NCBI RefSeq assembly: GCF_014640535.1
Contig: NZ_BMHD01000001.1
Coordinates: 1,180,214-1,244,213, forward strand
From: Cnuibacter physcomitrellae
GTDB lineage: Bacteria > Actinomycetota > Actinomycetes > Actinomycetales > Microbacteriaceae
Length of the DNA: 64,000 nucleotides
Reading direction: 5' to 3'
The position numbers and the translations under genes were made by a program. The notes below the pieces were generated by a model, which was not told the origin of the DNA, made no database searches, and saw nothing but the letters and a program-made list of their open reading frames with translations. This document shows positions 47,540-61,969 of this stretch, piece after piece. Each line of letters starts with the position of its first letter. The first letter of the stretch is position 1.

Positions 47540-48700
47540 GTGCGCTATCCGATCGACGTAAGCGGCCGTGGGCTCGCCGTCGCCGCCCTCCTGGTCGGCT
47601 TCGGCGCGGGTCTCTGGCGCGATCTGCTCGGCGTCTGGGGCTACCTCTGCCTGGCCGGCGTGCTGGTCGCGGTCACGGTGGTCCACCTCACCCGGACCAG
47701 GCTGTGGCGGAACCTCCCGCTGTCGCGGCTGCCGAAGACGCTGCTGCTGTACGTGCTCGTCCTGGTGGTCATGATCCCGTTCACGCTGCGTCCGGGCGAG
47801 GACGCCCTCGTGGCGTTCGCCCAGCTGGCCGGTCTCGTGGTCGGTCTGTTCCTCGCTGCCGGGCTGACCTGGCCGGTCCTGCTCTCCGCGCTCACCAGGG
47901 CGTTCTCCCTCCTCATCGGGTTCTCGCTGCTGTTCGAGCTGGTCGTCGCGGTGTTCGTGCGGCAGCCCGTCCACCCCCTGGTGCCCCGCGAGGGCGAGCC
48001 GGTGTGGACGTACGGCGACCTGTTCCGCTACGGCCATGTGCAGGGGCTCGTCGGCTCCTCCGCCGCGCTCGGGTTCATCGCGCTCCTGCTGGTGATCACG
48101 GTCGGCATCCAGTGGGCGCAGTCCCTGCGGCCGACCGCATCCGCCGTGATCTGGGTCGTGCTCGGCGCAGCGACGATCGTCCTCACGCGCGACCTGCCGG
48201 TGCTCACGGCCACCGGCGTGTGCGCCCTCATGCTCGGCGTGATGGTGCTCGCCCGCCGCCTCGGCCCGGTCGCCCGCGTCGTGCTCCTGGTCGCCATGGG
48301 GGCGGTGAAGCTCGGCGTCGTGCTCGCCCTCGCCTGGTCGGCACAGTCCGCCGGTGCGTGGGCCGACGTCCAGCAGCACGCGGGGATCGTCGGAGTGCTG
48401 CTGCTCGCCGCCCTGATCGCCGGCCTGTTCTACCGGCTCTGGTGGTTCGCCGTCGACCGGCCGCTCGACTCCCGCGGCGTGCCCGGCGAGCACGTGCCAA
48501 TGACCCTGTATCCGGCTCTCGTCTCCACGGCGCTGGTCACCGTGAGCGTCTGGAACGACGTCATGATCGTGACCGGCGGCTGGATGCTGCTCGTCGCCCT
48601 CGCGGTGCACTCGAAGCTCGACAACCACCGCGTCGGCCTCGACCTGGGTGTGCCGCGCCGGTCCTTCGTCGCCTCTGCCTCCGCGGTCGCCGTCCGATGA
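47540..48700 (+). CDS. O-antigen ligase/polymerase-like membrane protein
   Basis: 386 residues with about 11 membrane segments and a larger extracytoplasmic loop in the middle (about 130-165: FVRQPVHPLVPREGEPVWTY in part). The layout is that of the Wzy/O-antigen ligase superfamily, which polymerises or attaches lipid-linked glycans on the outer face. Motif support is weak, so this is by topology and context. GTG start at 47540 with TAGGAT 6 nt upstream. ATGA overlap with the next glycosyltransferase gene shows an operon. Confidence 0.7.
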   Translation: MRYPIDVSGRGLAVAALLVGFGAGLWRDLLGVWGYLCLAGVLVAVTVVHLTRTRLWRNLPLSRLPKTLLLYVLVLVVMIPFTLRPGEDALVAFAQLAGLVVGLFLAAGLTWPVLLSALTRAFSLLIGFSLLFELVVAVFVRQPVHPLVPREGEPVWTYGDLFRYGHVQGLVGSSAALGFIALLLVITVGIQWAQSLRPTASAVIWVVLGAATIVLTRDLPVLTATGVCALMLGVMVLARRLGPVARVVLLVAMGAVKLGVVLALAWSAQSAGAWADVQQHAGIVGVLLLAALIAGLFYRLWWFAVDRPLDSRGVPGEHVPMTLYPALVSTALVTVSVWNDVMIVTGGWMLLVALAVHSKLDNHRVGLDLGVPRRSFVASASAVAVR

Positions 48701-49581
48701 CGCTCGACGTCATGATGCCGTTCTACGGCAGGGCGGATCACCTCCGCGTGGCGGTCGAGAGCGTGCTCGCCCAGACCGACCCGGACTGGCGCCTGGTGGT
48801 GGTCGACGACCGCTACCCGGACGAAGCCCCGGGCGAGTGGGTGCGCGCGATCGAGGACCCTCGGGTGGAGTACCGGCGCAACGCCCGGAACCTCGGGGTC
48901 ACCGGGAACTTCCGCGAGTGCGTACGCCTGGTCGAGCACGAGCGCGCCGTCATCCTCGGCAGCGACGACCGGATGCACCCGGGCTACGTCGCGCGCGTGG
49001 CCGAGCTCGCCGAGCGGTTCCCCGACGCCGCCATCCTCCAGCCCGGCGTCGACGTCATCGACGCCGAGGGCGCCGAGCACACCCCGATGGCCGACCGCAT
49101 CAAGGCCCTCCTGCGCCCGCGCGGGTCCGGACCGCGGGTGCTCGGGGGCGAGGACCTCGCCGCGAGCCTCCTCCGCGGCAACTGGCTCTACTTCCCCGCC
49201 CTCGTCTGGCGTGCCGACGAGCTGCGCCGATTCGACTTCCGGGAGGAGTTCGAGGTCGTCGAGGACCTTGCGCTCATCCTCGAGATCCTGCTGGCCGGCG
49301 GCGACCTGGTGCTGGACGACGAGGTGGTGTTCTCCTACCGACGGCATCGCGCGAGCGTCTCGGCGCTCCGCGGGCCCGACGGCGCGAAGTTCCTCGAGGA
49401 GCGCGCCCTGTTCCACGAGATGGCCGACCGGATGCGTGCCCGCGGATGGCGCCGCGCCGCGCGTGCCGCGCGCCTCCACCTCACGTCGCGCTTGAACGCC
49501 GCGAGCGAGCTGCCGTCAGCCCTCCGAGCGCGCGACTCCGCCGGGGTCAGGACCCTGCTGCACCACGTCGTCGCGCGCTGA
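48697..49581 (+). CDS. Family 2 glycosyltransferase
   Basis: 294 residues, soluble GT-A fold: MPFYGRADHLRVAVESVLAQTD, LVVVDDRYPDE, and a DxD-type VILGSDDRMHPGY (about 82-94), with EEFEVVEDLALILEILLAGG providing the usual acidic base region. No membrane helix. The sugar donor is unknown. The start overlaps the preceding stop (ATGA). Its 3' end overlaps the convergent gene at 49547 by 35 bp, so the last 11 codons are read on both strands. Confidence 0.88.
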   Translation: MTLDVMMPFYGRADHLRVAVESVLAQTDPDWRLVVVDDRYPDEAPGEWVRAIEDPRVEYRRNARNLGVTGNFRECVRLVEHERAVILGSDDRMHPGYVARVAELAERFPDAAILQPGVDVIDAEGAEHTPMADRIKALLRPRGSGPRVLGGEDLAASLLRGNWLYFPALVWRADELRRFDFREEFEVVEDLALILEILLAGGDLVLDDEVVFSYRRHRASVSALRGPDGAKFLEERALFHEMADRMRARGWRRAARAARLHLTSRLNAASELPSALRARDSAGVRTLLHHVVAR

Positions 49582-50329
49582 CCCTCGCCCGCCGACGGCG
49601 CGCGGCCTCGACGATGAGTCGCGCGAACACGGCTCGGGCCCGCAGGATCGTGCCCAGCCCTCGGATGCCGAGCGGCGTCTGGTTGGAGTCGTGGAGGCGG
49701 CGCTCGACGACGACGTCCTCGAGATGACGGATGCTCCGCCACACGTTCCCGACGATGGCGATCCAGACGTCGTGCGACTCGTGGAGGTAGGACGGGATGG
49801 GCAGGATGCCCGCGTCGATCGCCTCGCGCCGGAAGCCCATCGCGCATCCGAAGTAGGGGCGGTATCCGATCATCACGGCGAAGAGGTTCGCCCACCACCT
49901 CCCCGACTGGCGTGCCGTGAGGGGCGGGTACCAGAGGCGGGCCCCGTTCCGCCCCAGGATGCTGTGGTTCGCCGCCACGACGAGCGAGTCGGAGAGTCCG
50001 GCGATCATCGCCTCGTGCCGGCCCGGGGTCCAGACGTCGTCCTGGTCCGAGAGGAAGACGTAGCGCCCGCGAGCGCGGCGGATGGCCGTCTCGAACGCTC
50101 GCACGTAGCCGACGTTCCGGTCGGTGCTCGTGAGGAGCACGCGCGACTCGCCGAGGCGCGCCACGGTCTCCACGATGACCGCACGGGTGTCGTCCGGGGA
50201 GCAGTCGTCGACGATGACGAGCTCGTCGTCCGGGCCCAGCTGTGCGACGATCGACTCGATCTGCTCCGCCACGTAGGCGGCGCCGCGGTAGGTGGCCATG
50301 CAGACGCTGGCCCTGATCCCGTCGGTCAT
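49547..50329 (-). CDS. Family 2 glycosyltransferase, rhamnosyltransferase-like
   Basis: 260 residues. ASVCMATYRGAAYVAEQIESI, VIVDDCSPDDT, RGRYVFLSDQDDVWTPGRH (metal-binding SDQDD, about 93-97), then FGCAMGFRREAIDAGIL and a C-terminal YLHESHDVWIA. This pattern is common in rhamnosyl-type GT2 enzymes; donor unproven. The frame is open to 51277, but only as a shadow of the flippase gene; the ATG at 50329 overlaps the flippase stop (ATGA). Convergent with the gene at 48697. Confidence 0.88.
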   Translation of the reverse strand: MTDGIRASVCMATYRGAAYVAEQIESIVAQLGPDDELVIVDDCSPDDTRAVIVETVARLGESRVLLTSTDRNVGYVRAFETAIRRARGRYVFLSDQDDVWTPGRHEAMIAGLSDSLVVAANHSILGRNGARLWYPPLTARQSGRWWANLFAVMIGYRPYFGCAMGFRREAIDAGILPIPSYLHESHDVWIAIVGNVWRSIRHLEDVVVERRLHDSNQTPLGIRGLGTILRARAVFARLIVEAARRRRARVSARRRGAAGS

Positions 50330-51594
50330 GCCGGCTCCTCCTCGGTCGTGGTCGGCAGCGGCTCGCGCGCAGCCCGTCTGATCGCCACCGCATGCACCGC
50401 GAGTCCGGCGAGCGGGCCGACCGCGAGGGCCAGGACGGCGCGGGCGTCGACCCCGAGCGGGAGCAGGAGCACGAGGATCGCCACGACGGTGGCGGTGATC
50501 CATCCCGCGGAGTACGCGGAGTGGCGGTCGAGCGCGAGGCAGAGCGCACCGGTGACCGTGACCAGCGCGAGCAGGCCGGCCGCGAGGACCAGGGCCCCGA
50601 CGACCCAGGCCTCCAGCGAGTAGTCGGGCCCGTACCACCACACGAGGAGCGGCGGTCCCGCGAAGTAGGCGATCACCCCGCCCACCACGGCCACGGCCGC
50701 GATGAGCCCTCCGATCGGCAGCATCGCGCGGAAGCCCGCGGCGCGGTTGTTCAGGAAGTGGGCGATCGCGACACCCTGGTACGCGTTCAGCGGGATGAGC
50801 AGCGGGGCGCGCGTGAAGGTGATCGCGAGGAGGAGGGGCGCCGCGGCCGCGTACGCCGCCTCGCTCGAGGTGAGCTTCAGGATGACGGGGAAGCCGACCA
50901 CGAGGATCGCGCTGGAGCCCGAGGCGACGCAGGCGTGCCCGAAGCGGCGCAGCAGCGCACCGGCCGATCCGTCGCTGCGGGCGCGGGCGGCGGCGCGGAG
51001 CGTGGGCGAGAACGCCAGACCGATCAGCCACGTCACGCTCGAGACGCTCACCGCGACGGCGAGGCCGCCGAGCACGGCGGCGACGAGGGCGGCGACGACG
51101 ACCAGCACGAGCCGGAGCAGGGACTCGGCGGTGACCAGTCGCGCGAAGGTCGGCCACTGGATCCGGCCGCCCAGCACGCCGACGATCACGGCGTGGCCCG
51201 AGAACAGCGCGACCGAGCAGCTGAGCGGGACGGCGAGCCAGGCGTGGGCCGCATCGAAGACCAGGGCGCCCCACCACAGGCTCGTGACCCAGAGCAGCAC
51301 TCCCACGGCGACCCCGAGCGCGAGGCCGACCGGCAGGATGCGCGGTCGTCTGCCGTCGGCCGGCATCCGGTCGCTCGCGTGGACGGCCCTCGTGGACTCG
51401 GCGGACAGCCCGCCGAGGATGCCGAACCAGGCGAACAGGAACGACCAGAACGCGATGAAGAGCGCCGTGTCGGCGGGGTCGAGGATGTGCGGGACGAGGA
51501 GCAGCACGACGAAGCCGACACCCGCGGAGATGCCGGAGGCCGCGCCCACCCCCAGGAAGGAGCGGCGGCTGATCGTCTGAGCCTGGCCCGTCAT
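50326..51594 (-). CDS. Polysaccharide flippase-like membrane protein
   Basis: 422 residues, about 12-13 membrane segments evenly spread: SFLGVGAASGISAGVGFVVLLLVPHIL at the start, VVGALVLAAGLLALVTVTGALCLAL and ALAVGPLAGLAVHAVAIRRA near the end. Size and layout match MOP-superfamily Wzx-type exporters that flip lipid-linked oligosaccharides. The C-terminal tail is polar (PLPTTTEEEPA). Upstream partner of the rhamnosyltransferase-like gene (ATGA overlap). Frame extends far upstream as a shadow only; MTGQAQTISRRS is the sensible start. Confidence 0.8.
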   Translation of the reverse strand: MTGQAQTISRRSFLGVGAASGISAGVGFVVLLLVPHILDPADTALFIAFWSFLFAWFGILGGLSAESTRAVHASDRMPADGRRPRILPVGLALGVAVGVLLWVTSLWWGALVFDAAHAWLAVPLSCSVALFSGHAVIVGVLGGRIQWPTFARLVTAESLLRLVLVVVAALVAAVLGGLAVAVSVSSVTWLIGLAFSPTLRAAARARSDGSAGALLRRFGHACVASGSSAILVVGFPVILKLTSSEAAYAAAAPLLLAITFTRAPLLIPLNAYQGVAIAHFLNNRAAGFRAMLPIGGLIAAVAVVGGVIAYFAGPPLLVWWYGPDYSLEAWVVGALVLAAGLLALVTVTGALCLALDRHSAYSAGWITATVVAILVLLLPLGVDARAVLALAVGPLAGLAVHAVAIRRAAREPLPTTTEEEPA

Positions 51595-51645
51595 CAGACG
51601 GCCGGTCCCCGGCAGTGCGGAGTCGTGGCGCTCATGGGCTCCAAG

Positions 51646-51651
51646 CATAAT
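51646..51651 (+). promoter_or_regulatory. Probable -10 box of the GT gene at 51658 (leaderless)
   Basis: CATAAT, one mismatch from TATAAT, followed by 6 nt and a GTG. Confidence 0.55.
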
Positions 51652-51657
51652 GGGGCC

Positions 51658-52551
51658 GTGCAGCCCGGATCCGTCGCCGTCATCACGGCCTACCGTCCCG
51701 ACGGCGACTCTCTCGCCTCCCTCGTCGCCGCCCTGCGGCCTCAGGTGGAGGCCGTCGTCGTCGTCGACGACGGTTCGGGCGCGACGGCCCCGTTCGACGA
51801 CGCGGCGGAGGCCGGAGCGATCGTCGTGACGCACGACGAGAACCGGGGCATCGCGGCGGCGCTGAACACCGGGATCAGGACGGCGCGGGCCCACGTCGAC
51901 GCGCGGTGGGTCCTCACCTTCGACCAGGACTCCACGGTCGCGCCCGACTACGTCGCCTCCCTCGTCGCGACCGCGCAGGCGGCGACGGCCGCCGGGATCC
52001 GGGTCGGCCTGGTCGCGCCGCGCCGGGTGGAGGGGCTCCCCGCGCTGGAGGCCGGGGTGCGCGACGGGTTCGTCCTCGGCTCCGAGCCGATCCAGTCCGG
52101 CCTCCTCATCCCCGTCGCCGTGCTCGAGGCCGTCGGCCCCTTCGCCGAGGCGCTCTTCATCGACTGCGTCGACACCGACCTCTGGCTGCGTGTCCGCGAC
52201 CACGGGTTCGAGGTGGTGCTCGATCCGCTCGCCGAGCTCGGCCACGCCCTGGGCCGCCGGCACGTCGTGCGCGCGCTGGGACGCGAGCTCCACGTCACGC
52301 ACGCGGCCACGTTCCGCTACTACTACCTCGCGCGCAATCGCATCCTCATGAACCGGATGCACGGCCGCGGGCGCCGGGCGTGGGCGCTCCAGCAGACCGC
52401 GGCGGACCTGCGCCACTTCGTGATCGCCCTGGTCCTCGTGCCCGACCGCGGTCGCCGCCTGCGGATGATCGTCGCGGGCATCCGCGACGGCTGGCGCGGC
52501 CGCACGGGGCGGATGCCCGTGGAGGTCGAGCGGGTCGCCACAGCGGCCTGA
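51658..52551 (+). CDS. Family 2 glycosyltransferase, rhamnosyltransferase-like
   Basis: 297 residues. VAVITAYRPDGDSLASLVAAL, VVVVDDGSG, the metal site WVLTFDQDSTVAPDYV (DQD about 88-90), QSGLLIPVAVLEAVGPFAEALFIDCVDTDLWLRVRD in parts, and YYYLARNRILMNR at the C-terminal side, as in WbbL/RfbN-type rhamnosyltransferases. GTG start at 51658 is 6 nt after CATAAT; the in-frame ATG at 51634 overlaps that box and is unlikely. Single gene, divergent from the flippase operon (63 bp apart). Confidence 0.88.
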   Translation: MQPGSVAVITAYRPDGDSLASLVAALRPQVEAVVVVDDGSGATAPFDDAAEAGAIVVTHDENRGIAAALNTGIRTARAHVDARWVLTFDQDSTVAPDYVASLVATAQAATAAGIRVGLVAPRRVEGLPALEAGVRDGFVLGSEPIQSGLLIPVAVLEAVGPFAEALFIDCVDTDLWLRVRDHGFEVVLDPLAELGHALGRRHVVRALGRELHVTHAATFRYYYLARNRILMNRMHGRGRRAWALQQTAADLRHFVIALVLVPDRGRRLRMIVAGIRDGWRGRTGRMPVEVERVATAA

Positions 52552-52577
52552 CTCCCGGGGCCTCCAGGCGCCCCCGG

Positions 52578-52583
52578 TAGGAT
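52578..52583 (+). promoter_or_regulatory. Probable -10 box of the DPM1-like operon (leaderless)
   Basis: TAGGAT, 7 nt before the ATG at 52591; no Shine-Dalgarno. Confidence 0.5.
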
Positions 52584-52590
52584 GGCGGGC

Positions 52591-53346
52591 ATGTCGCACT
52601 CCCCCTCGAGAATCCTCGTGGTGATGCCTGCGTACAACGAGGAGGAGGCCGTCGCCGACGTCGTGCGCGAGGTGTTCGCCACCGTCCCGGGCGTCGGGGT
52701 CCTCGTGGTCGACGACGGCTCGAGCGACGCCACCAGTCGTCGTGCGGCGGAGGCGGGGGCCACCGTGCTCCGCCTGCCGATCAACCTTGGCGTGGGCGGA
52801 GCGATGCGCGCCGGCTTCAAGTACGCCCTGCAGTACGGATACGACACGGTCATCCAGGTCGACTCCGACGGGCAGCACGACCCCCGCTCGATCCCCGAGC
52901 TCGTCTCCGCTCTCGAGACCCACGACGTCGTCATGGGAGCACGCTTCGCCGGCGTCGGCGACTACCGGGTCAGCGGGCCGCGGCACTGGGCGATGGTGGT
53001 GCTGTCCGCCGTCCTCAGCCGCATCGCGAAGACGAGGCTCACCGACACCACCTCGGGCTTCCGCGCCAGCGGCCCCCGGGCGGTGCGGCTGTTCGCGGTG
53101 CACTACCCGTCGGAGTACCTCGGCGACACCATCGAGTCCCTCGTCATCGCCCAGCGCGCGGGCCTCAGCATCGCCCAGGTGCCCGTGGCCATGCGTCCCC
53201 GTGCCGGTGGCGTGCCGTCGCACAACCCGTACAAGGCCGCCGTGTACCTCGGCAGGGCGGGCATGGCGCTCTTCGTCGCGCTGATCCGCCCGCGGCTCCC
53301 GCTGTCCGCGACCGTCGCAGAACCGAGCGTGAACGCCCCCGCATGA
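52591..53346 (+). CDS. DPM1-like family 2 glycosyltransferase
   Basis: 251 residues without the C-terminal membrane helices of many polyprenyl-phosphate transferases. RILVVMPAYNEEEAVADVV, VLVVDDGSSDAT, LPINLGVGGAMRAGFKYA, and VIQVDSDGQHDPRSIPELV with the DSD metal site (about 91-93). It probably makes a polyprenyl-phosphate sugar or adds sugar to a lipid carrier. It is coupled (ATGA) to a DUF2304 gene, which may provide the missing membrane part. The first ATG at 52582 overlaps the -10 box, so MSHSPSRIL at 52591 is preferred. Confidence 0.88.
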   Translation: MSHSPSRILVVMPAYNEEEAVADVVREVFATVPGVGVLVVDDGSSDATSRRAAEAGATVLRLPINLGVGGAMRAGFKYALQYGYDTVIQVDSDGQHDPRSIPELVSALETHDVVMGARFAGVGDYRVSGPRHWAMVVLSAVLSRIAKTRLTDTTSGFRASGPRAVRLFAVHYPSEYLGDTIESLVIAQRAGLSIAQVPVAMRPRAGGVPSHNPYKAAVYLGRAGMALFVALIRPRLPLSATVAEPSVNAPA

Positions 53347-53768
53347 GCATCACCATCTACATCGTCGGCATCGTGGCCGCCCTGTTCACCCTCGCCGTGG
53401 TGATCGAGTCCCTCCGACGGCACCACCTCCGAGAGCGGCACGCCGTGTGGTGGCTGCTGGCCGGCCTCGTGGCGCTCGTCTTCGCGGTGTTCCCGGGCCT
53501 GCTCGACCGGGCGGCGAGCCTCCTCGGCGTCACCGTCCCGATCAACCTCGCCTTCTTCCTCAGCATCGCCGTGCTGTTCCTGGTCTCGATCCAGCACAGC
53601 GGTGAGCTCACCAAGCTCGAGGGCCAGGTGCGCACGCTGACGGAGGCGGCCGCCCTCCAGGAGCTCCGTGTGAAGCGGCTGGAGGACGCACTCGAGTCGT
53701 ACCGGAGCCGCCAGGAGAGCCCCCGCGACGTCCCGGAGCAGGGCAGACAGGAGCAGCGGCGCGAATGA
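53343..53768 (+). CDS. DUF2304 small membrane protein
   Basis: 141 residues: three membrane helices (about 4-24, 38-55 and 69-87), then a cytoplasmic coiled-coil-like tail (HSGELTKLEGQVRTLTEAAALQELRVKRLEDALESYR, in parts). DUF2304 is often found directly after DPM1-like GT2 genes. Overlaps both neighbours by ATGA, so the three genes 52591-55312 are one translationally coupled unit. A partner or anchor role for the transferase is inference. Confidence 0.87.
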   Translation: MSITIYIVGIVAALFTLAVVIESLRRHHLRERHAVWWLLAGLVALVFAVFPGLLDRAASLLGVTVPINLAFFLSIAVLFLVSIQHSGELTKLEGQVRTLTEAAALQELRVKRLEDALESYRSRQESPRDVPEQGRQEQRRE

Positions 53769-55312
53769 CGGCGACCACCGGTCCCGACGTCACGGTCCCC
53801 CGCCGACGTCCTCTCTGGCGGTCCCTGCTGCTGCCCTGGCTCCTGCTCGCCGTCGTGACGAGCATCTGGGCGCTGGCCACGCCCCCGGGCGGCTCTCCCG
53901 ACGAGCCCGCCCACATGGTCAAGGCCGCCTCGGTGGCCCGCGGCGAGCTGACGCCGTCGGCGATGATCGAGAAGGGCGGCGTGCTCCAGGTCCCGGCCTG
54001 GGTCGCCTTCGAGTACGAGCAGACCTGCTACGCCTTCTTCGCCACCCAGCCCGTGGACTGCATCCCGCAGTTCTCCGGCGATCCGGCCGCCATGGTGTCG
54101 AGCTACTCCTCCGCGAGCCTGTACGACCCCGTCTACTACGCCCTCGTCGGATGGCCGAGTCTGCTGTTTCAGGACGAGTCGGGCCTCTACGCCATGCGCA
54201 TCGTGAGCGGCATCCTGTGCTCGTTCCTCGTCGCGCTGTCGATCCACCTCGTCGGCGGCTGGCGGCGCGGGCGGCTGCCCGCCACCGCGGTGCTCGTCGC
54301 CCTCACCCCGATGGCCGTCTTCATCATGGCGTCCGTCAACCCGAACGCCCTCGAGTTCACCGGGGCCCTGGCGGCATTCACCGCCCTCCTCTCGATCGTC
54401 CTCTCGCCCGACGAGTCCCGGCTGAGAGGACGGGTGACGGTCGTCGCCGTCGCCACGGCGCTCGTCGTCCACGCCCGTTCGATCTCACCGCTCTGGATGG
54501 CCGTGCTGCTGCTGGCCCCGCTGCTGCTGCTCGGGTGGCGGGACCTCCTCGCCCTCCTCCGACGCCGCGCCGTCATCGTCGCCGCCGCGGTGATCGTGGC
54601 CGCCACGCTGCTGAGTGTGTGGTGGACCCTGACCAGCAACTCGCTCGGCACCGCGCCGACGACCGGGCCCGATGTCGCGCCGCCCGCCAAGGGCGTGGGG
54701 ACGCCGTTCCTCCAGGGCTTCCTCCAGAGCATCGGCGACTTCTACACGCAGATCCGGCAGATGATCGGCGTGCTCGGCTGGCTCGACACGATCTTCAACC
54801 CGCTGGTGTACATCGCGTTCTACGCGATGATCGGACTGCTGGCCGTCGGCGTCCTGATCTGGGTGCGTGGAAGACGGTTGGTCTTCGCGGCCGTGCTGGC
54901 CGCGGCCTTCTTCTTCCTGCCGCCCTTCGTGCAGGCGCTCTACATCACCCGGGGCGGGTACATCTGGCAGGGTCGCTACAGCCTCGTCCTGCTGATGTGC
55001 CTGATCGTCGGTGCGGCCGCCGTCATCGCGACGTCGCCGCGCTTCCTCGCCGGGCGCAGGTCGGGCCGGGCGACGACGATCGTCGTGTGGGCGTTCGCGG
55101 CGATCTGGACCGCGTGCAGCGTGTGGGCGTTCGCGACCGCGATGCGTCGCAACACCGTCGGCTACCTCGGATCCTGGGGCGAGATGCTGGGCAGCCCCGG
55201 ATGGGCGCCCCCGCTGGGCCCCGTCGTGCTGCTGACGCTTTTCACCGTGGCCACCGCGGGCCTCGCCGTCTCCGTCGTGCGGTCGTCGGACGACGAGCTC
55301 ACGAGGCGATAG
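53765..55312 (+). CDS. DUF2142 multi-pass membrane protein
   Basis: 515 residues with about 11-12 membrane segments. The N-terminal first loop holds TPPGGSPDEPAHMVKAASVARGELTP, where the DE pair recalls the catalytic acid region of GT-C glycosyltransferases; family DUF2142 is usual in actinobacterial and streptococcal glycan loci. Probably a polyprenyl-sugar-dependent transferase acting outside the membrane; not proven. Third gene of the coupled unit; its 3' end overlaps the convergent gene at 55299 by 14 bp. Confidence 0.82.
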   Translation: MTATTGPDVTVPRRRPLWRSLLLPWLLLAVVTSIWALATPPGGSPDEPAHMVKAASVARGELTPSAMIEKGGVLQVPAWVAFEYEQTCYAFFATQPVDCIPQFSGDPAAMVSSYSSASLYDPVYYALVGWPSLLFQDESGLYAMRIVSGILCSFLVALSIHLVGGWRRGRLPATAVLVALTPMAVFIMASVNPNALEFTGALAAFTALLSIVLSPDESRLRGRVTVVAVATALVVHARSISPLWMAVLLLAPLLLLGWRDLLALLRRRAVIVAAAVIVAATLLSVWWTLTSNSLGTAPTTGPDVAPPAKGVGTPFLQGFLQSIGDFYTQIRQMIGVLGWLDTIFNPLVYIAFYAMIGLLAVGVLIWVRGRRLVFAAVLAAAFFFLPPFVQALYITRGGYIWQGRYSLVLLMCLIVGAAAVIATSPRFLAGRRSGRATTIVVWAFAAIWTACSVWAFATAMRRNTVGYLGSWGEMLGSPGWAPPLGPVVLLTLFTVATAGLAVSVVRSSDDELTRR

Positions 55313-56612
55313 ACGTCAGCACGGCGGCCACGCCGAGCACCGCCGTCGCCGGACCCGCCCAGCGGAGACGGCTGACCAGCATCCCGACGCCGGCGACGAA
55401 CCCCGGCAGGAGGACGATGCCGTAGCGGAGCGGGAGCTCGATGATCGTCCGCGAGGACATCCAGACCAGGAACAGCAGCGCCGGGCCCATCAGGAGCCCG
55501 ATGACGCCGAGCCCCCAGGCCAGTGACGTCTCCTCGTCCGACCCCTTCACCAGACGCGTGATCATGACCACGAGGAAGGTGGCCGTGGCCATGGTGAGCA
55601 GGTACCCGAAGAAGGTCCCGATCGCGCCGACGTTGGTCTGGTCGAGTCCGACGTTGCTGACGAAGAGGAAGACGTTCTGCACCAGGCTGACCGGGTTGAG
55701 CTTCTCCGCCTCCAGGTAGCCCCCGTCGACGCTCGGCTTGGCCAGGACGGTCCGGACGACCAGCCAGACGGCCTGGGCGATCACCCCCGCCACCACGCTC
55801 ACCACGACGGCGACCACGGCGCGATCGCCGAGGAGGGAGCGGACGAGGCCGGGGTCGCGGTCGCGACGCCACGCGAGGATGCGCATGACGATGATCGCCA
55901 GCCCGACCGCCAGCACCGGGAAGATGAACTGGACCTTGAGGGCGACGGCGATCACCGTGAACGGCAGCAGCCACCAGGGCGAGCGCTCGCGACGCATCAC
56001 CGCGACGCCGAGGAGGAAGGCGCCCGCCGAGACCAGGATCGCCGGCGCGTCGGTGCTCAGGTAGGTCGTGGCCCAGTACGCCGACGGGGTGGCCACCACG
56101 CCCAGTCCGAGGCCCGTCGCGAGGAGCCGCCCCACCCCGAGCCGGCGGAGCAGCGCGTACAGCACCAGCACTCCCCCGGCGAGCCACAGCATGCCCACGA
56201 GCCTTCCGGCATCGAGCAGACCGATCCCGAACCAGGTGAAGGGCTGCGCCGCGACCCAGGTGACGGCGAAGTAGAGCGGCGTGTAGATGTCGGCGCCCGT
56301 GCGCCCGCCGTAGGGGAAGTACTTGTCGTCCGTGATGTCGTACGACTCGCAGTTCGACTTGGGATCGGTGATGTTCACCACGCCCCGGCAGAGGATGGCG
56401 CTCCGGGCCTCGGGGCCCGTGCGCTCCCCCGTGACCACGAGCCCCTGGGTGGGGACCTTCACCAGGTAGTCGTAGTACACGTACTCGTCGTAGAGCGAGA
56501 GCGCGGAGTGCTGGGGCGCCTGGACGGCGACCAGGGCGACGCTGGCCAGCGAGAGCACGACGGCGGGAAGCACCCGCCACGACCCGAGGCGGGCGAGGAG
56601 AGCACGGATCAC
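55299..56612 (-). CDS. Multi-pass membrane protein, GT-C-like
   Basis: 437 residues with about 10-11 membrane segments. After TM1 an extracytoplasmic loop (about 35-105) has SLYDEYVYYDYLVKVPTQG and two Cys (ILCRGVVN and SNCESYD) that could form a disulfide. The DE in this first loop again suggests a GT-C transferase. GTG start at 56612 with a weak ribosome site (AGGGTCG). Divergent in role from its neighbours only by inference; no family name can be fixed. Confidence 0.75.
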   Translation of the reverse strand: MIRALLARLGSWRVLPAVVLSLASVALVAVQAPQHSALSLYDEYVYYDYLVKVPTQGLVVTGERTGPEARSAILCRGVVNITDPKSNCESYDITDDKYFPYGGRTGADIYTPLYFAVTWVAAQPFTWFGIGLLDAGRLVGMLWLAGGVLVLYALLRRLGVGRLLATGLGLGVVATPSAYWATTYLSTDAPAILVSAGAFLLGVAVMRRERSPWWLLPFTVIAVALKVQFIFPVLAVGLAIIVMRILAWRRDRDPGLVRSLLGDRAVVAVVVSVVAGVIAQAVWLVVRTVLAKPSVDGGYLEAEKLNPVSLVQNVFLFVSNVGLDQTNVGAIGTFFGYLLTMATATFLVVMITRLVKGSDEETSLAWGLGVIGLLMGPALLFLVWMSSRTIIELPLRYGIVLLPGFVAGVGMLVSRLRWAGPATAVLGVAAVLTSIAS

Positions 56613-56848
56613 AGCGCGCGACCCTGATTCAGAGGGCCGCGGGGGCGGCCCGGCGGTCGCCCTGTCTTCTGGACTCTGTGGTGGTGCAACAGGGGTTCCT
56701 CACGGTGCGGTGGTTCTCTGGAGCGGTGCGCTCGCGGATCGTCCGAGCGGTGCACCCACCCGAGCGGGTGGCGCGGGCACATCTTACGCGGGCACGCCTT
56801 AACCGTAGAGCAGGGACGAGACCGTCCGATGGCGGCCGCGGCGGGCGA

Positions 56849-57439
56849 TCAGACGTCGCGGACGGTCTGGGGCGGCAGACCGAGGACGGCGGCCTCCGCG
56901 GCGAGCCGCTCCTTCTCCTGCAGCGCGGCGAAGCCGTCGGCCCGCTTGGGCGAGAAGACCCAGTACCGGTAGAGCAGGAACCGGAACAGCGTGGCCAGCA
57001 CGAGGCCGATCACGTTCCCCGAGATGTTGTCGGCCACGAGGTTGTCGAAGCCCAGGACGTAGTGCGACACCCAGAGGCAGCCGAGGCTGATGCCGAGGCC
57101 CACCACGGCGATGGCGGTGAACTCGACGAACTCGAGGACGACGTTCTTGCGGCGGTTCTCCCGGAAGGTCCAGTACCGGTTGCCGAACCAGGTCGCGATC
57201 GTGGAGCAGGTCACGGAGACGAACTTCGCCCCCAGCGGGTCGGACCACCAGCCGTCGCCGAGCCAGTCGAGGCGGAGCACGTTGAAGACGCCGACGTCGA
57301 TCAGGTAGCCCGCGAGTCCGACGACACCGAACTTCAGCGCGTGCCGGATGAACTTGTCGTACGCGTAGGTCCAGACCCGTCTCACTCGCTGCACCAGTCG
57401 ACCGCTCCCTACGATAGCTCTTGGGCGAAGAATCCTCAT
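56849..57439 (-). CDS. GtrA-family membrane protein
   Basis: 196 residues. The GtrA domain (about 33-165) has four membrane helices: HALKFGVVGLAGYLIDVGVFNVL, a TWFGNRYWTF(R) signature after helix 2 (about 83-92), then two more ending FRFLLYRYWVFSP. GtrA proteins help move or use polyprenyl-phosphate sugars. The basic N-terminus and C-terminal helical tail (GFAALQEKERLAAEAAVL) are cytoplasmic. The gap 56613-56848 before the gene at 55299 shows only C/G-rich, non-coding sequence with no clear signal. Confidence 0.9.
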   Translation of the reverse strand: MRILRPRAIVGSGRLVQRVRRVWTYAYDKFIRHALKFGVVGLAGYLIDVGVFNVLRLDWLGDGWWSDPLGAKFVSVTCSTIATWFGNRYWTFRENRRKNVVLEFVEFTAIAVVGLGISLGCLWVSHYVLGFDNLVADNISGNVIGLVLATLFRFLLYRYWVFSPKRADGFAALQEKERLAAEAAVLGLPPQTVRDV

Positions 57440-57572
57440 GGTCGACCCGAAGATATCTCAGCCGTCCCACCGCGCCGAAACAAGAGAATCATAACCGCCA
57501 TGTATTCTTGGCTGGTTCAAGCACGCGGGCCGGGGGTCGGCTGGGGCGTGTCCTTCCTCTTCAGGAGCAGAA

Positions 57573-58778
57573 TTGCCTACGAATTTCGAGAACGACGTGG
57601 TGGTGATCGGTGGGGGCGGACATGTCGGTCTCCCCCTGGCGATCGCCCTCGCGGACCGGGGATCCAAGACCGTCGTCTACGATCTGAGCGCCACCGCGGT
57701 CGAGACCATCCTCCGGGGCGAGATGCCCTTCAGCGAGCCCGGCGCCGAGGAGGTGCTGCAGCGGGTCCTCGCCAACGGCATGTTCACCGCGTCGACCGAC
57801 GCCGCGGTCGTGGGCACCGCCGAGAACGTCGTCGTGGTCATCGGCACCCCGGTCGACGAGCACCTGAACCCCGACCCGAACGCCATCCCCGCCGCCCTCG
57901 AGAGCTGCAGCCCCTACTTCCACGACGACCAGCTGCTGATCCTCCGCAGCACCGTCTACCCCGGCGTCACGGCTCTGGTCGAGCGCATGCTGCGCGACAA
58001 GGGCCTGGCCACCGAGGTCGCCTTCTGCCCCGAGCGCATCGCCGAGCACAAGGCGATGGAGGAGCTGTTCACGCTCCCCCAGATCGTCTCCAGCCGGACG
58101 CAGAGCGGCCGCGAGCGCGCCTCGACGCTGTTCCGCACGCTCACCGACGAGATCGTCGACCTCGAGCCCGAGGAGGCGGAGCTCGCGAAGCTCTTCACCA
58201 ACACGTGGCGCTACATCAAGTTCGCCGCGGCCAACCAGTTCTACATGATGGCCAACTCCCGCGGGCTCGACTTCGAGCGCATCCGCGCCGGCCTGACGTA
58301 CAACTACCCCCGCGCGAAGGACCTGCCCGGTCCCGGCTTCGCCGCCGGCCCGTGCCTGTTCAAGGACGCGATGCAGCTCGCCGCCTTCAGCGACAACCAG
58401 TTCTCGCTCGGCCACTCCGCGATGCTCGTGAACGAGGGGCTCCCGCTCTACATCGTGACCCAGCTCGAGAAGCGCTTCGACCTCGAGAACCTCACGGTCG
58501 GCATCCTCGGCATGGCCTTCAAGGCGGGCTCCGACGACATCCGCTCGAGCCTGTCCTACAAGCTGCGGCGCGTGCTGAAGTTCCGGGCCAAGGCCGTCAT
58601 CGGGACCGACCCGTACGTGCCCGAGCACATCGACGACACCCTCCTCCCCCTCGATGCCGTGCTGGAGAAGGCCGACATCCTCATCGTCGCCACCCCGCAC
58701 AAGGAGTACCGCGGCCTGACGACCGACAAGCCGGTCGCCGACGTCTGGAACCTCCTCGGCAACGGGGTCGTGGTGTGA
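57573..58778 (+). CDS. Nucleotide-sugar dehydrogenase (UDP-ManNAcA dehydrogenase-like)
   Basis: 401 residues. NAD loop VVVIGGGGHVGLPLAIALADRG (in part), STVYPGVT, and the active-site block LPGPGFAAGPCLFKDAMQL with the catalytic Cys, whose GPCLFKD form resembles WecC-type UDP-N-acetylmannosamine dehydrogenases more than UDP-glucose dehydrogenases (SCFPKD). The central EEAELAKLFTNTWRYIKFAAANQFY carries the Lys/Asn of the family. It makes a uronic acid donor. Unusual start: TTG with AGGAG five nt upstream. First of four coupled or closely spaced genes (57573-61969). Confidence 0.88.
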   Translation: MPTNFENDVVVIGGGGHVGLPLAIALADRGSKTVVYDLSATAVETILRGEMPFSEPGAEEVLQRVLANGMFTASTDAAVVGTAENVVVVIGTPVDEHLNPDPNAIPAALESCSPYFHDDQLLILRSTVYPGVTALVERMLRDKGLATEVAFCPERIAEHKAMEELFTLPQIVSSRTQSGRERASTLFRTLTDEIVDLEPEEAELAKLFTNTWRYIKFAAANQFYMMANSRGLDFERIRAGLTYNYPRAKDLPGPGFAAGPCLFKDAMQLAAFSDNQFSLGHSAMLVNEGLPLYIVTQLEKRFDLENLTVGILGMAFKAGSDDIRSSLSYKLRRVLKFRAKAVIGTDPYVPEHIDDTLLPLDAVLEKADILIVATPHKEYRGLTTDKPVADVWNLLGNGVVV

Positions 58779-59572
58779 CCTCCCCGGATCGACCCGATCG
58801 CCCGAGCGACGACGCCGGCGAGCGGGAGGGGCCACGGGCCTCGATCGTCATCCCGGCGTACAACGAGGGCGAGGACATCGTCCCCGGGCTCGACCGGATC
58901 TTCGAGGCGGTCCACGTCGACGCCGAGGTGATCGTGGTGGTCGACTCGCCGACCGACACGACCGCCCCCGTGGTGACCGCCTACGCCGAGGCGGAGCCGC
59001 GTCTGAAGCTGGCGGTGAACGACTACGGCCGAGGACCCGCCCATGCCATCCGGTACGGCATCGACCACGCCACGAGCGAGACCGTCGTGGTGACGATGGC
59101 CGACGGGTGCGACGACCCGAGGCAGATCGACGACCTCGTCCGGCTCGTCGAGCGCGGTGTCGTCGTCGCCTGCGCCTCCCGCTACATGCCGGGCGGCCAG
59201 CAGGTCGGAGGCCCCCGGTTCAAGAGCCTGCTCTCCCGGTTGGCGGGACTGACCTTCCAGCTGTTCACGAACACCGGCACCCGCGACGCCACCAACTCGT
59301 TCAAGGCGTACAACGCCGAGTTCGTCCGCAGCGTCGGGATCCACAGCCGCGACGGCTTCGAGATCGGACTCGAGCTGACCGCGAAGGCCCACCGGCTCCG
59401 CGCCCCCGTCGCCGAGATCCCCACCATCTGGCTCGACCGCACCTTCGGGCAGTCCAACTTCAAGCTCGCGAAGTGGATCCCCAAGTACCTCCGCTGGTAC
59501 CGTTTCGGCTTCGGCCGGAAGCTGACCGCACCCGAGGTGCGCGCCCTCGCCGACACGATCACGAACCCCTGA
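58775..59572 (+). CDS. DPM1-like family 2 glycosyltransferase
   Basis: 265 residues. A 20-residue polar start is followed by ASIVIPAYNEGEDIVPGLDRI, VIVVVDSPTDTT, DYGRGPAHAIRYGIDHA, and VVTMADGCDDPRQID, where the metal-site DxD reads ADGCDD. The SRLAGLTFQLFTNTGTRDATNSFKAYN block is typical of polyprenyl-phosphate transferases. GTG start overlapping the previous stop (GTGA). Always with the flanking dehydrogenase and epimerase in this type of locus (from memory), so it probably uses their product. Confidence 0.87.
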   Translation: MTSPDRPDRPSDDAGEREGPRASIVIPAYNEGEDIVPGLDRIFEAVHVDAEVIVVVDSPTDTTAPVVTAYAEAEPRLKLAVNDYGRGPAHAIRYGIDHATSETVVVTMADGCDDPRQIDDLVRLVERGVVVACASRYMPGGQQVGGPRFKSLLSRLAGLTFQLFTNTGTRDATNSFKAYNAEFVRSVGIHSRDGFEIGLELTAKAHRLRAPVAEIPTIWLDRTFGQSNFKLAKWIPKYLRWYRFGFGRKLTAPEVRALADTITNP

Positions 59573-59601
59573 CACTCCCTACGGAGAGGAACACCCACCC
59601 C

Positions 59602-60627
59602 ATGAAGAAGGTCCTCGTCACCGGCTCCGCCGGATTCATCGGCGGCTACATCGTCGAAGAGCTGCTCGCCAAGGGCTACCAGGTCGTCGGCGTCGACAAC
59701 TACTCGAAGTACGGCCCGGTGAAGAAGTCCTACGACGACGACCCGAACTACGAGCTCGTGGTCGGCGACGTCCAGGACGTCGAGCTCATGACCAAGCTCC
59801 TCGCGGACGTCGACCACTTCATCGCGGGCGCCGCGCTCATCGGCGGGATCTCCTACTTCCACACCTACGCCTACGACCTGCTGGCGCAGAACGAGCGCAT
59901 CATCGCCTCGAGCGTCGACGCCGCGATCGCCGCCCACAAGTCCGGTCGCCTGGAGAAGGTCACCTACATGTCGAGCTCGATGGTGTTCGAGTCGACCGAC
60001 CGGTGGCCGTCGAAGGAGGGCGACGAGCGCGAGGTGCCGCCGCCGCTGTCGTCCTACGGCTTCCAGAAGCTCGCGGTCGAGTACTTCGCGCGCGCCGCGT
60101 GGGACCAGTACAAGCTGCCCTACACGATCCTCCGCCCCTTCAACTGCGTGGGCATCGGCGAGAGCCGCGCCCTGGGCGACGTCGAGATCGACTCGGGCAA
60201 CGTGAAGCTCGCCATGAGCCACGTGGTCCCCGACCTCGTGCAGAAGGTCCTCAAGGGCCAGGACCCGCTCCACATCCTCGGGTCCGGCGAGCAGGTCCGC
60301 CACTACACCTACGGCGGCGACCTGGCGCGCGGCATCGTGCTCTCGCTCGACCACCCCGCCGCGCTCAACAACGACTTCAACATCTCCACCGCCGAGGGCC
60401 ACTCGGTGAAGGAGCTGGCCGAGGTCATCTGGCGCAAGATCAAGGGCCCCGACGTGCCGCTCAACCTCGTCAGCGACCCCGGCTTCGAGTACGACGTCGC
60501 CAAGCGCGTCCCGGACGTCAGCAAGGCCAAGGAGCTCCTGGGCTTCGAGGCGACGACGTCGCTCGAGACCATGCTCGACGAGGTCATCCCGTGGATCGAG
60601 AACGCCGTCGCCGACGGCACGATCTGA
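59602..60627 (+). CDS. NAD-dependent epimerase/dehydratase (extended SDR)
   Basis: 341 residues. GSAGFIGG NAD loop (residues 8-15), MSSSMVFE, catalytic Tyr152 and Lys156 (SYGFQK) and a C-terminal substrate domain (GSGEQVRHYTYGGDLARGI). The family includes UDP-glucuronate and UDP-GlcNAc 4-epimerases; the exact sugar is undecided. Context (dehydrogenase two genes upstream) suggests a uronate donor. GGAGAGGAAC lies about 12 nt before the ATG. 29 nt after the glycosyltransferase stop, so same operon. Confidence 0.88.
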   Translation: MKKVLVTGSAGFIGGYIVEELLAKGYQVVGVDNYSKYGPVKKSYDDDPNYELVVGDVQDVELMTKLLADVDHFIAGAALIGGISYFHTYAYDLLAQNERIIASSVDAAIAAHKSGRLEKVTYMSSSMVFESTDRWPSKEGDEREVPPPLSSYGFQKLAVEYFARAAWDQYKLPYTILRPFNCVGIGESRALGDVEIDSGNVKLAMSHVVPDLVQKVLKGQDPLHILGSGEQVRHYTYGGDLARGIVLSLDHPAALNNDFNISTAEGHSVKELAEVIWRKIKGPDVPLNLVSDPGFEYDVAKRVPDVSKAKELLGFEATTSLETMLDEVIPWIENAVADGTI

Positions 60628-60658
60628 GCAGGCGGCGGATCCCGCAGCGGAGGCACGG

Positions 60659-61969
60659 ATGAAGCGGCTGCCCCTCCTGTTCCACCTGGCCTCACTCGGT
60701 GCGGCGTTCGCGCTGATCATGTACCTGGGTCGGGCCCAGTGGTTCTTCTACGACGAGTGGCTCTTCATCTCCCTCCGGGCGACCGACTGGATCACACCGC
60801 ATCTCGGGCACTGGAGCACCATCCCGATGCTCCTGACCCAGGGGCTGGTCCGCACCATCGGGCTCGATCAGTACTGGCCGTACCTCGCGCTGGCCGTGCT
60901 GGCGCACCTGGCCCTGGCGCACCTCCTCTGGCGCGCGATGAACCGCCTCGGCGTGCGCCCGTGGCTGTCCACTCTCATGGCGGCGGTGTTCCTCTTCTAC
61001 GGTGCGGGCTCGGAGAACCTCTTCTGGGCGTTCCAGGTCGGGTTCGTGGGCGCCATCGCGCTCGGCGCCCTCACGCTCCTGCTCGCCGATCGGCTGACCC
61101 GCGAGAACTACCTCCGATGGCTCGCGCCCTTGAGCCTCATCTCGATCGTCAGCCTGATGTTCGCGGGCACCGCGCTGGCGATGATCGCGGGGCTCGCGAT
61201 CATCGCGTTCCGCCGCGTCGGCCTGTGGCGCGCCGCGCTCCTGGTGGCCGTACCCGGCGCCGTGTACTCCGTCTGGTACGTGTGGGTCAAGACGCACCCG
61301 ATCTACTTCATGCCCTCCGACTGGCAACCGCGCTCGATCTCCGAGCTGCTGCTCGCCGTGCCGCTGTACGCGCTCAACATGATCCAGGTCGCGCTCAGCT
61401 CGCTCACCCCGGTGCAGTACGTGGGCATCGTCCTGGGCGTGGCGCTCCTCGTGTTCGCCCTCGTGAGGTTCCGCAGGATCTGGCGGGACCAGCCCCTGGC
61501 CTTCGCGTTCGCCTTCGCCGGGATCGTCTTCGCGCTCCTGACCGGCTTCTCGCGCCTCAATCTCTCCTTCGAGGCGTCGGGGTCGAGTCGCTACATCTAC
61601 TTCGCCTTCGCCATGCTCGTCCCCCTCATCGCCGTCGGGCTCGACACCGTCCTGCGGGGCCGGATCCTGGCGGCCGTCGGAGCCACTCTGCTGGCGGGGT
61701 CGATCGTGTGGGGTGTGTGGGGCATGCGGATCTCGGCCGATGCGCAGTCGCGCAATGAGCTGCACACGAGGGAGGTCCTCTTCGCCGCCGCGGCGATCCG
61801 GGAGGAGCACCCCGATCTCGTCGACGAGAAGGCCGAGCCCGAGCCCAACTACGCGCCGCTGTTCACGCTCGGCGAGCTCGGTGAGCTGGTGGACGCCGGA
61901 TACCTCCACATCGGACCGTACGACGACGAGGCGTACCGCGAGGCCTGGCACAACATCGTCGAGAAGTGA
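60659..61969 (+). CDS. Multi-pass membrane protein, GT-C-like
   Basis: 436 residues with about 10-11 membrane segments and a C-terminal extracytoplasmic or cytoplasmic tail of about 70 residues (EVLFAAAAIREEHPDLVDEKAEPEPNYAPL in part). The first loop has GRAQWFFYDEWLFISLRATDW, where YDEW is the likely catalytic or metal-binding acid pair of GT-C transferases. 31 nt after the epimerase stop. It may transfer the lipid-linked sugar made by the three genes before it; unproven. Confidence 0.78.
   Translation: MKRLPLLFHLASLGAAFALIMYLGRAQWFFYDEWLFISLRATDWITPHLGHWSTIPMLLTQGLVRTIGLDQYWPYLALAVLAHLALAHLLWRAMNRLGVRPWLSTLMAAVFLFYGAGSENLFWAFQVGFVGAIALGALTLLLADRLTRENYLRWLAPLSLISIVSLMFAGTALAMIAGLAIIAFRRVGLWRAALLVAVPGAVYSVWYVWVKTHPIYFMPSDWQPRSISELLLAVPLYALNMIQVALSSLTPVQYVGIVLGVALLVFALVRFRRIWRDQPLAFAFAFAGIVFALLTGFSRLNLSFEASGSSRYIYFAFAMLVPLIAVGLDTVLRGRILAAVGATLLAGSIVWGVWGMRISADAQSRNELHTREVLFAAAAIREEHPDLVDEKAEPEPNYAPLFTLGELGELVDAGYLHIGPYDDEAYREAWHNIVEK

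Follow-up and report, generated by a model that had tools for sequence, protein, structure and literature searches.

Which surface polysaccharide could be made by a gene set that holds glycosyltransferases, a polymerase-like and a flippase-like protein, with neither an enzyme to start a chain nor an exporter in sight? The question is raised by positions 47540-61969 of a 64,000-nucleotide stretch of the Cnuibacter physcomitrellae genome (hereafter the window; C1:1180214-1244213 of a 4.35-Mb genome; G+C content 66-75% in 2-kb steps). By gene calling, the interval has 14 genes in groups of alternating strand, and an earlier note, drawn from the letters of the window, had described these mini-operons as a surface-glycan locus with an unusual set of parts. 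Our analysis supports the surface glycan, but its parts cease to be unusual when the neighbours to the right of the window are counted in, which complete a two-part rhamnan-type locus. The window cuts a locus of ~46 kb, from 47540 to about 93780 (window coordinates), and the interval is its left third. We consider it probable that the interval encodes the decorating half of a wall rhamnopolysaccharide locus of a Microbacteriaceae, in which a rhamnan exported by an ATP-binding cassette (ABC) system and attached by an LCP protein is combined with two modules, module 1 (g077-g083) and module 2 (g085-g089). The less ordinary part of the locus is a triad of genes in module 2, for a nucleotide-sugar dehydrogenase, a family 2 glycosyltransferase (GT2) and an epimerase; the rest is known architecture in a Microbacteriaceae.

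The locus beyond the window

Genes were called with a codon-based caller over 200 kb around the window, and the locus proteins were scanned with Pfam; gene content, families or folds, linkage and conservation are reported below as found. The caller had merged the divergent pair g080/g080b, which we split by hand at 51594/51634. Reading the sequence to the right and left, as the earlier note had advised, supplied the ABC exporter it had missed. Rightward of the window lie an RgpF/WbsX fusion, a second RgpF, a fusion of GT2 and family 4 (GT4) domains, an ABC-2 permease (ABC2_membrane) and an ATPase with a Wzt_C domain. The last two form a Wzm/Wzt-like ABC exporter at C1:1251480-1253590, 7.3-9.4 kb beyond the right end, so that its reported absence was an effect of the window edge. 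Further on we found several GT2/GT4-type enzymes, a methyltransferase, RmlC and a DegT aminotransferase, as well as GT2s, GtrA, RmlB, RmlD, GT4 and LCP; a protein of the NTP_transferase family is a candidate RmlA. Genes for dTDP-rhamnose, an RgpF-type transferase, an ABC exporter and an LCP protein, by which we recognise a rhamnose-type cell wall polysaccharide locus, thus stand in one locus. An RgpF domain fused to a WbsX domain is encoded at L006:4725-6767 (L numbers denote loci).

On its left the locus is flanked by genes for WhiB, a DJ-1/AraC-type regulator, phosphomannose isomerase and acyl-CoA dehydrogenase, and on its right by LCP, PurE, PurK, a bPH protein, biotin ligase and carboxyl transferase (Pfam). 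These flanks (WhiB/ManA and LCP/PurEK/BirA/AccD) appear to resemble the wbbL1-rmlD-cpsA region of mycobacteria. Adjacent to WhiB and outside the locus on its left side, positions 39718-43257 encode a GT2-domain protein of 1179 amino acids; the Microbacterium relatives L032 and L033 have similar genes to the left of the triad.

A genome scan with PF02397 and PF00953 detected no initiating phosphoglycosyltransferase in the ~46-kb locus, as the earlier note had observed for its part of it. Its suggestion that the missing parts lie outside the window proved right for the exporter and for the Rml and LCP genes. It did not bring a phosphoglycosyltransferase into the locus, a possibility that we rejected: the genome's single PF02397 gene, at C1:1399605 and ~155 kb from the right end of the window, sits in a different locus. 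That locus (L106:5128-19856, C1:1388127-1402855) also encodes a UDP-glucose-dehydrogenase-family protein, a GDP-mannose dehydratase, a pyruvyl transferase, Wzy_C, WecG and an AAA_31/ParA-like protein; its core has a G+C content of 56-58%, and it holds the only gene of the genome above the PF04932 cut-off and a second dehydrogenase that outscores g086 on PF03721 (185 vs 104 bits). It is a Wzy-type polysaccharide locus, probably acquired. Of the two PF00953 proteins in the genome, we call the one encoded beside ATP synthase subunits WecA-like and the one among Mur ligases and a MurG-like GT28 a putative MraY.

The gac and rgp/wps loci of streptococci and lactococci, as described in PMC8327497 and PMC10821137, share with this locus the Rml genes, RgpF-type proteins, ABC exporter and LCP, as well as a pair of GT2 and DUF2304 proteins (the initiating pair there), GT2s and a GT-C protein; their Wzx-type flippase has a candidate counterpart here. 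Unlike them, the locus here is actinobacterial and also has GtrA, more GT-C-like proteins and the dehydrogenase-GT2-epimerase cassette; its polymerase-like g077 lacks a motif segment, and the putative WecA-like initiator is far away.

The genes of the interval are listed in Table 1.

Table 1. Genes of the interval and the gene to its right, in window coordinates (TM, transmembrane segments; SDR, short-chain dehydrogenase/reductase).
Gene	Position	Strand	Assignment and features
g077	47540..48700	+	386 amino acids, 11 predicted TM; O-antigen ligase/Wzy_C family, no Pfam match of its own
g078	48697..49581	+	GT2; PF00535 7.9e-19; 4-base overlap with g077
g079	49547..50329	-	GT2; PF00535 9.7e-26
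g080	50326..51594	-	12 predicted TM; candidate flippase of the MOP superfamily (Wzx/MATE/MurJ-like)
g080b	51634..52551	+	GT2; PF00535 3.7e-15; start codon uncertain
g081	52582..53346	+	DPM1-like GT2; PF00535 1e-22; no predicted TM; start 52582 or 52591
g082	53343..53768	+	DUF2304 small membrane protein; PF10066 5.8e-25, 88.1 bits (cut-off 25.5)
g083	53765..55312	+	DUF2142 polytopic protein; PF09913 4.3e-40, 138 bits (cut-off 30.1); PDE in first loop
g084	55299..56612	-	Polytopic; GT-C-like by topology and first-loop YDE only
g085	56849..57394	-	GtrA/DPMS-TM protein; PF04138 3.2e-25, 89 bits (cut-off 26.1); divergent from triad
g086	57573..58778	+	Nucleotide-sugar dehydrogenase, triad gene 1; PF03721/PF00984/PF03720
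g087	58775..59572	+	DPM1-like GT2, triad gene 2; PF00535 6.8e-23; no predicted TM
g088	59602..60627	+	Extended-SDR sugar epimerase, triad gene 3; PF01370 4.6e-41
g089	60659..61969	+	GT-C glycosyltransferase 3' of triad; slot variable in relatives
g090	61985..64000, continues to 64558	-	Probably secreted; six ~99-residue repeats (GWxVD/N ... VxVP); no Pfam match

Module 1 and the polymerase-like protein

The DUF2304 gene g082, the single PF10066 gene of the genome, directly follows the DPM1-like GT2 g081 with a 4-base overlap. This order matches the signature published for the initiating pair GacI/GacJ (WpsA/WpsB): a DUF2304 gene directly 3' of a gacI homologue is described as typical of GacJ-like proteins (review, PMC8327497). 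WpsA/WpsB make GlcNAc-P-C55; in the model of the authors this intermediate is lengthened, a Wzx-type protein then flips it, and a GT-C enzyme attaches it to rhamnan (PMC10821137). Among 14 control genomes, PF10066 was present in three (Lactococcus lactis, Corynebacterium glutamicum and Methanocaldococcus jannaschii). We regard g081 as a candidate polyprenyl-phosphate sugar synthase of the GacI/WpsA/PpgS type. The galactosamine decoration of arabinogalactan, with PpgS, Rv3632, Rv3779 and the epimerase Rv3634c (in C. glutamicum ppgS, cgp_0391, cgp_0393, cgp_0396 and cgp_0658), is likewise actinobacterial and combines an epimerase, a polyprenyl-phosphate GT2, a small membrane partner and a membrane transferase (PMC3485146, PMC9671496). 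It differs in that g081 scores well under the PpgS cut-off and the acceptor here is presumably the rhamnan; Rv3632 is likened to g082 as a small membrane partner.

The earlier note had counted five GT2 enzymes and two DPM1-like transferases. The interval has exactly five PF00535 genes (C1:1228922, 1230027, 1231892, 1232831 and 1239054), the DPM1-like two being among the five and not additional to them. Its DUF2304 and GtrA proteins are confirmed, and its three GT-C-like proteins stand on different grounds: g089 on its fold, g083 on PF09913, and g084 on topology only. We presume that DUF2142 (PF09913) groups with GT-C, which would make g083 a probable GT-C protein; g084 had no Pfam match and no homologue in the 56 loci described below (tblastn, 1e-6). 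For the flippase-like g080 we found no family match above cut-off in Pfam and no sequence match in a PDB profile search. The 32 best Foldseek PDB matches of its model were all MATE/MurJ/WzxE proteins (MOP fold), with a best E-value of only 5.7e-3 from a poor model (pLDDT 49.4), and g080 is a candidate MOP flippase.

The polymerase/ligase-like g077 does belong to the O-antigen ligase family, since five of the seven aligned family members match PF04932 (best 1.7e-20). Its own sequence gave no match to PF04932, and the alignment shows that it lacks a segment of ~60 residues bearing the GR..W and HN/HD motifs, including the conserved His motif. Homologues of g077 were found in 62 of 119 genomes (its own included); among 40 homologous frames taken from 30 of those loci and the 56 dehydrogenase loci, some of them near-identical (L019, L076), 36 keep the segment, 35 of these with the His motif (the exception is L020). 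Four frames are without it: that of the window itself (L075), that of L015, one of the two in L095 (the second), and that of L096, which we take to be cut by the contig end. Tandem pairs of g077-type genes precede g078 in L017 and L019, and tandem pairs also occur in L014, L025, L032, L033 and L037, where the window has one shortened copy. With the motif segment absent and one shortened copy left, polymerisation of chains by g077 appears doubtful, and decoration by single units, as in the group A carbohydrate, more likely. In L017 and L019 the second tandem paralogue has ALNA in place of the AHDA of the first; in L095 a shortened copy stands beside a full-length one, and L015:1-918 is also loop-less. 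A role of such loop-less proteins as pseudo-enzyme partners is possible.

A dehydrogenase-GT2-epimerase triad

Both family matches of the dehydrogenase and epimerase that the earlier note had paired were found (g086, g088), and a uronic-acid donor made by them is plausible. Its WecC-like label for g086 is good only at the level of the subfamily TIGR03026 (251.9 bits, cut-off 189.8). WecC as a name is not supported: against the UDP-ManNAc dehydrogenase (WecC) equivalogs g086 scores 167.4 vs 750 and 149.6 vs 459 bits, and the named dehydrogenase models are all far from their cut-offs. Similarly, g088 falls short of the GalE equivalog TIGR01179 (102.9 vs 262.3 bits), and none of the three triad proteins attains an equivalog cut-off or any curated substrate-level family in NCBIfam. 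The best PDB match of g087 is the dolichol-phosphate mannose (DPM) synthase 5mlz (1e-14), and ArnC is among its ten matches; it has TMADG in place of the DAD of DPM synthase. We infer that the triad makes a polyprenyl-phosphate-linked uronic acid.

Motifs of the three proteins were invariant, or nearly so, in aligned rows of at least 85% coverage, the window included: AGPCLFKD (as in the window) or AGPCLLKD in 54/54 rows of the dehydrogenase (identity at least 44%), TMADG in 43/43 of the GT2 (at least 40%), and SSSM with YGFQK in 52/52 of the epimerase (at least 60%). Dehydratases and decarboxylases carry an acidic residue at the SSSM position, and we disfavour either activity for g088.

With g086 as query we collected 56 loci, selected without regard to neighbours; they are inter-related, and the scan recovers near relatives only. 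In 47 the triad is close together (three matches on one strand within 4.5 kb, with identities of at least 55% for the epimerase and at least 42% for the GT2), three of them outside Actinomycetota. The order is that of the window in 44 and dehydrogenase-epimerase-GT2 in three (L055, L063 and L065, from metagenome-assembled genomes of Dysgonamonadaceae and Lentisphaeria). By gene calls, strict adjacency was found in 42 of the 56 (40 in the order DPE, two DEP); the remaining close triads are loci in which gene calling failed or the dehydrogenase was cut. In all 47 the epimerase is closer to the window's copy than the dehydrogenase is. We found no description of the triad in the literature (open-licence PMC papers only). 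In L057 and L059 (Rhodospirillales) and L066 (Terriglobia) a related dehydrogenase lies beside aminotransferase-like genes and a different epimerase, perhaps a sister pathway with an amino-uronate.

Behind the triad, g089 has a well-defined model (AlphaFold2 pLDDT 93.6) of GT-C fold, matching protein O-mannosyltransferases, oligosaccharyltransferases, ArnT and AftB (Z 16.6-20.9; best Foldseek matches AftB 1.5e-4 and ArnT 2.1e-4). Seventeen g089-like members gave nothing meaningful in Pfam, and in relatives the slot is often filled by distant or unrelated large polytopic proteins. The divergent g085 is one of three GtrA genes in the genome; GtrA adjoins the triad in 12 of the 56 loci, one a weak match. 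A g090-type gene is also near the triad in several relatives.

We tentatively propose that the triad is an unrecognised cassette for one specific polyprenyl-phosphate-linked hexuronate (e.g. galacturonic acid, GalA, from UDP-glucuronic acid) that may feed exchangeable GT-C enzymes acting on surface polysaccharides. It would be kept in Actinomycetota, one Bacteroidota locus (Dysgonamonadaceae) and two Lentisphaeria loci, with the dehydrogenase (PCLFKD/PCLLKD), the GT2 (MAD, not DAD) and the epimerase as subfamilies of their own. GtrA/GtrB/GtrC three- or multi-component transmembrane glycosylation shares the set of GT2, GtrA and GT-C (PMC8035078); here, in contrast, the unit itself includes the dehydrogenase and epimerase for donor synthesis. 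A likeness to RgtE/RgtD/RgtF lies in the role of uronate transfer; the acceptor there is a Gram-negative lipopolysaccharide. RgtE is a GT2. In that system a bactoprenyl-phosphate-GalA transferase and GalA transferases add uronate to lipid A (PMC7663294).

A two-part scheme and its rivals

Substrates, order of steps, acceptors and linkages are conditional in the scheme that follows. The rhamnan backbone would be started by the WecA-like enzyme from the ATP-synthase operon, built from dTDP-rhamnose by RgpF-type and other transferases, exported by the Wzm/Wzt-like pair and then joined to peptidoglycan by an LCP protein, with all of these encoded outside the window. In module 1, g081 and its partner g082 would load a sugar, probably an N-acetylhexosamine, on polyprenyl monophosphate; GT2s may extend it, g080 would flip it, and g083 would move it onto the chain outside. 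In module 2, g086 would make a nucleoside diphosphate-uronate, g088 epimerise it (probably at C4) and g087 pass it on to polyprenyl phosphate; g085 would act here as a flippase or as a membrane partner, and g089 would transfer the uronate outside. The earlier note's idea of a glycan put together sugar by sugar on polyprenyl-phosphate survives for the side groups, whose donors the GT2-DUF2304 pair and the second DPM1-like GT2 would fit, but not for the backbone, which has its ABC exporter.

The dehydrogenase loci most similar to that of the window are mainly from Agreia, Herbiconiux and another Microbacteriaceae (86-89% identity). In ten relatives of our own choice from the 56 loci, with membership of the same locus judged from matching coordinates and the same contig assumed, the Wzt-like ATPase was present in all (identity 62-73%), 6.7-19.7 kb from the dehydrogenase. 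The DUF2304 protein was also present in all ten (56-72%), at 24-33 kb from the dehydrogenase in Agreia and L030, if on the same contig. RmlD was found in eight (65-87%), in L021 on a different contig from the ATPase.

Several results weigh against our reading. In the two Agreia genomes the RmlD match has just 41% identity and, assuming a shared contig, lies ~310-360 kb away; rhamnose therefore need not be the backbone there. Herbiconiux wall sugars are mixed, with glucose only in H. aconitum and H. daphne and glucose, rhamnose and ribose in H. oxytropis (PMC10011130), yet the H. daphne genome carries the locus, the ATPase and a close RmlD; the assay may have missed rhamnose, H. daphne may not make the polymer, or our reading is mistaken. 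The best NCBIfam model of g081 is PpgS at 94.4 bits, far under the cut-off of 370 (NF058614), and its likeness to GacI comes from gene arrangement. Nine of the 56 loci have no close triad: in L056, L060, L061 and L067 the dehydrogenase adjoins the epimerase and the GT2 is not close or not similar, and in L042, L057, L058, L059 and L066 neither is close (a complete triad stands elsewhere in the genome of L042, in L068). Plain vertical descent would also give rise to the correlated distances seen among the three proteins of the triad. A large polytopic gene lies within two genes of the triad in 43 of 51 loci against about 65% expected (139 of 600 other genes being large polytopic, with four neighbours per triad), a modest enrichment over the locus background, and the gene next to the triad has no predicted transmembrane segment in L035, L040 and L068.

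Could the interval make a separate Wzx/Wzy polymer that has nothing to do with the rhamnan encoded rightward? The grouping of g080, g077 and three further GT2s would suit two independent glycans, but g077 lacks its motif segment, the genome's only PF02397 gene and only PF04932 gene above cut-off share the C1:1388-1403 kb locus, and the DUF2304 and ATPase genes co-occur in all ten relatives; we regard this as distinctly unlikely. A further alternative concerns export: the triad could feed a soluble cytoplasmic transferase, g087 being an ordinary GT2, and the uronate would enter the chain before it leaves the cell. The lack of predicted transmembrane segments in g087 and its TMADG agree with this; the solved relatives of g087, the GtrA genes adjoining the triad and the GT-C g089 that follows it here point the other way and make the soluble route rather unlikely.

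Alternatively, the dehydrogenase product might be changed further and the lipid-linked sugar made by the triad be a neutral or amino one, as the aminotransferase-like neighbours and different epimerase in L057, L059 and L066 would allow. Since neither an aminotransferase nor a decarboxylase belongs to the three-gene unit, and an acidic residue would be expected where g088 has SSSM, we consider this improbable and prefer a uronate moved to a wall rhamnan.

If our reading is true, the two-part rhamnan design of streptococci and lactococci extends to the Microbacteriaceae wall, the absence of a phosphoglycosyltransferase from the locus has its explanation and a compact cassette gains a name. Among the sources of acidic wall sugars in Gram-positive bacteria, and perhaps of phage receptors, would then be lipid-linked uronate donors.

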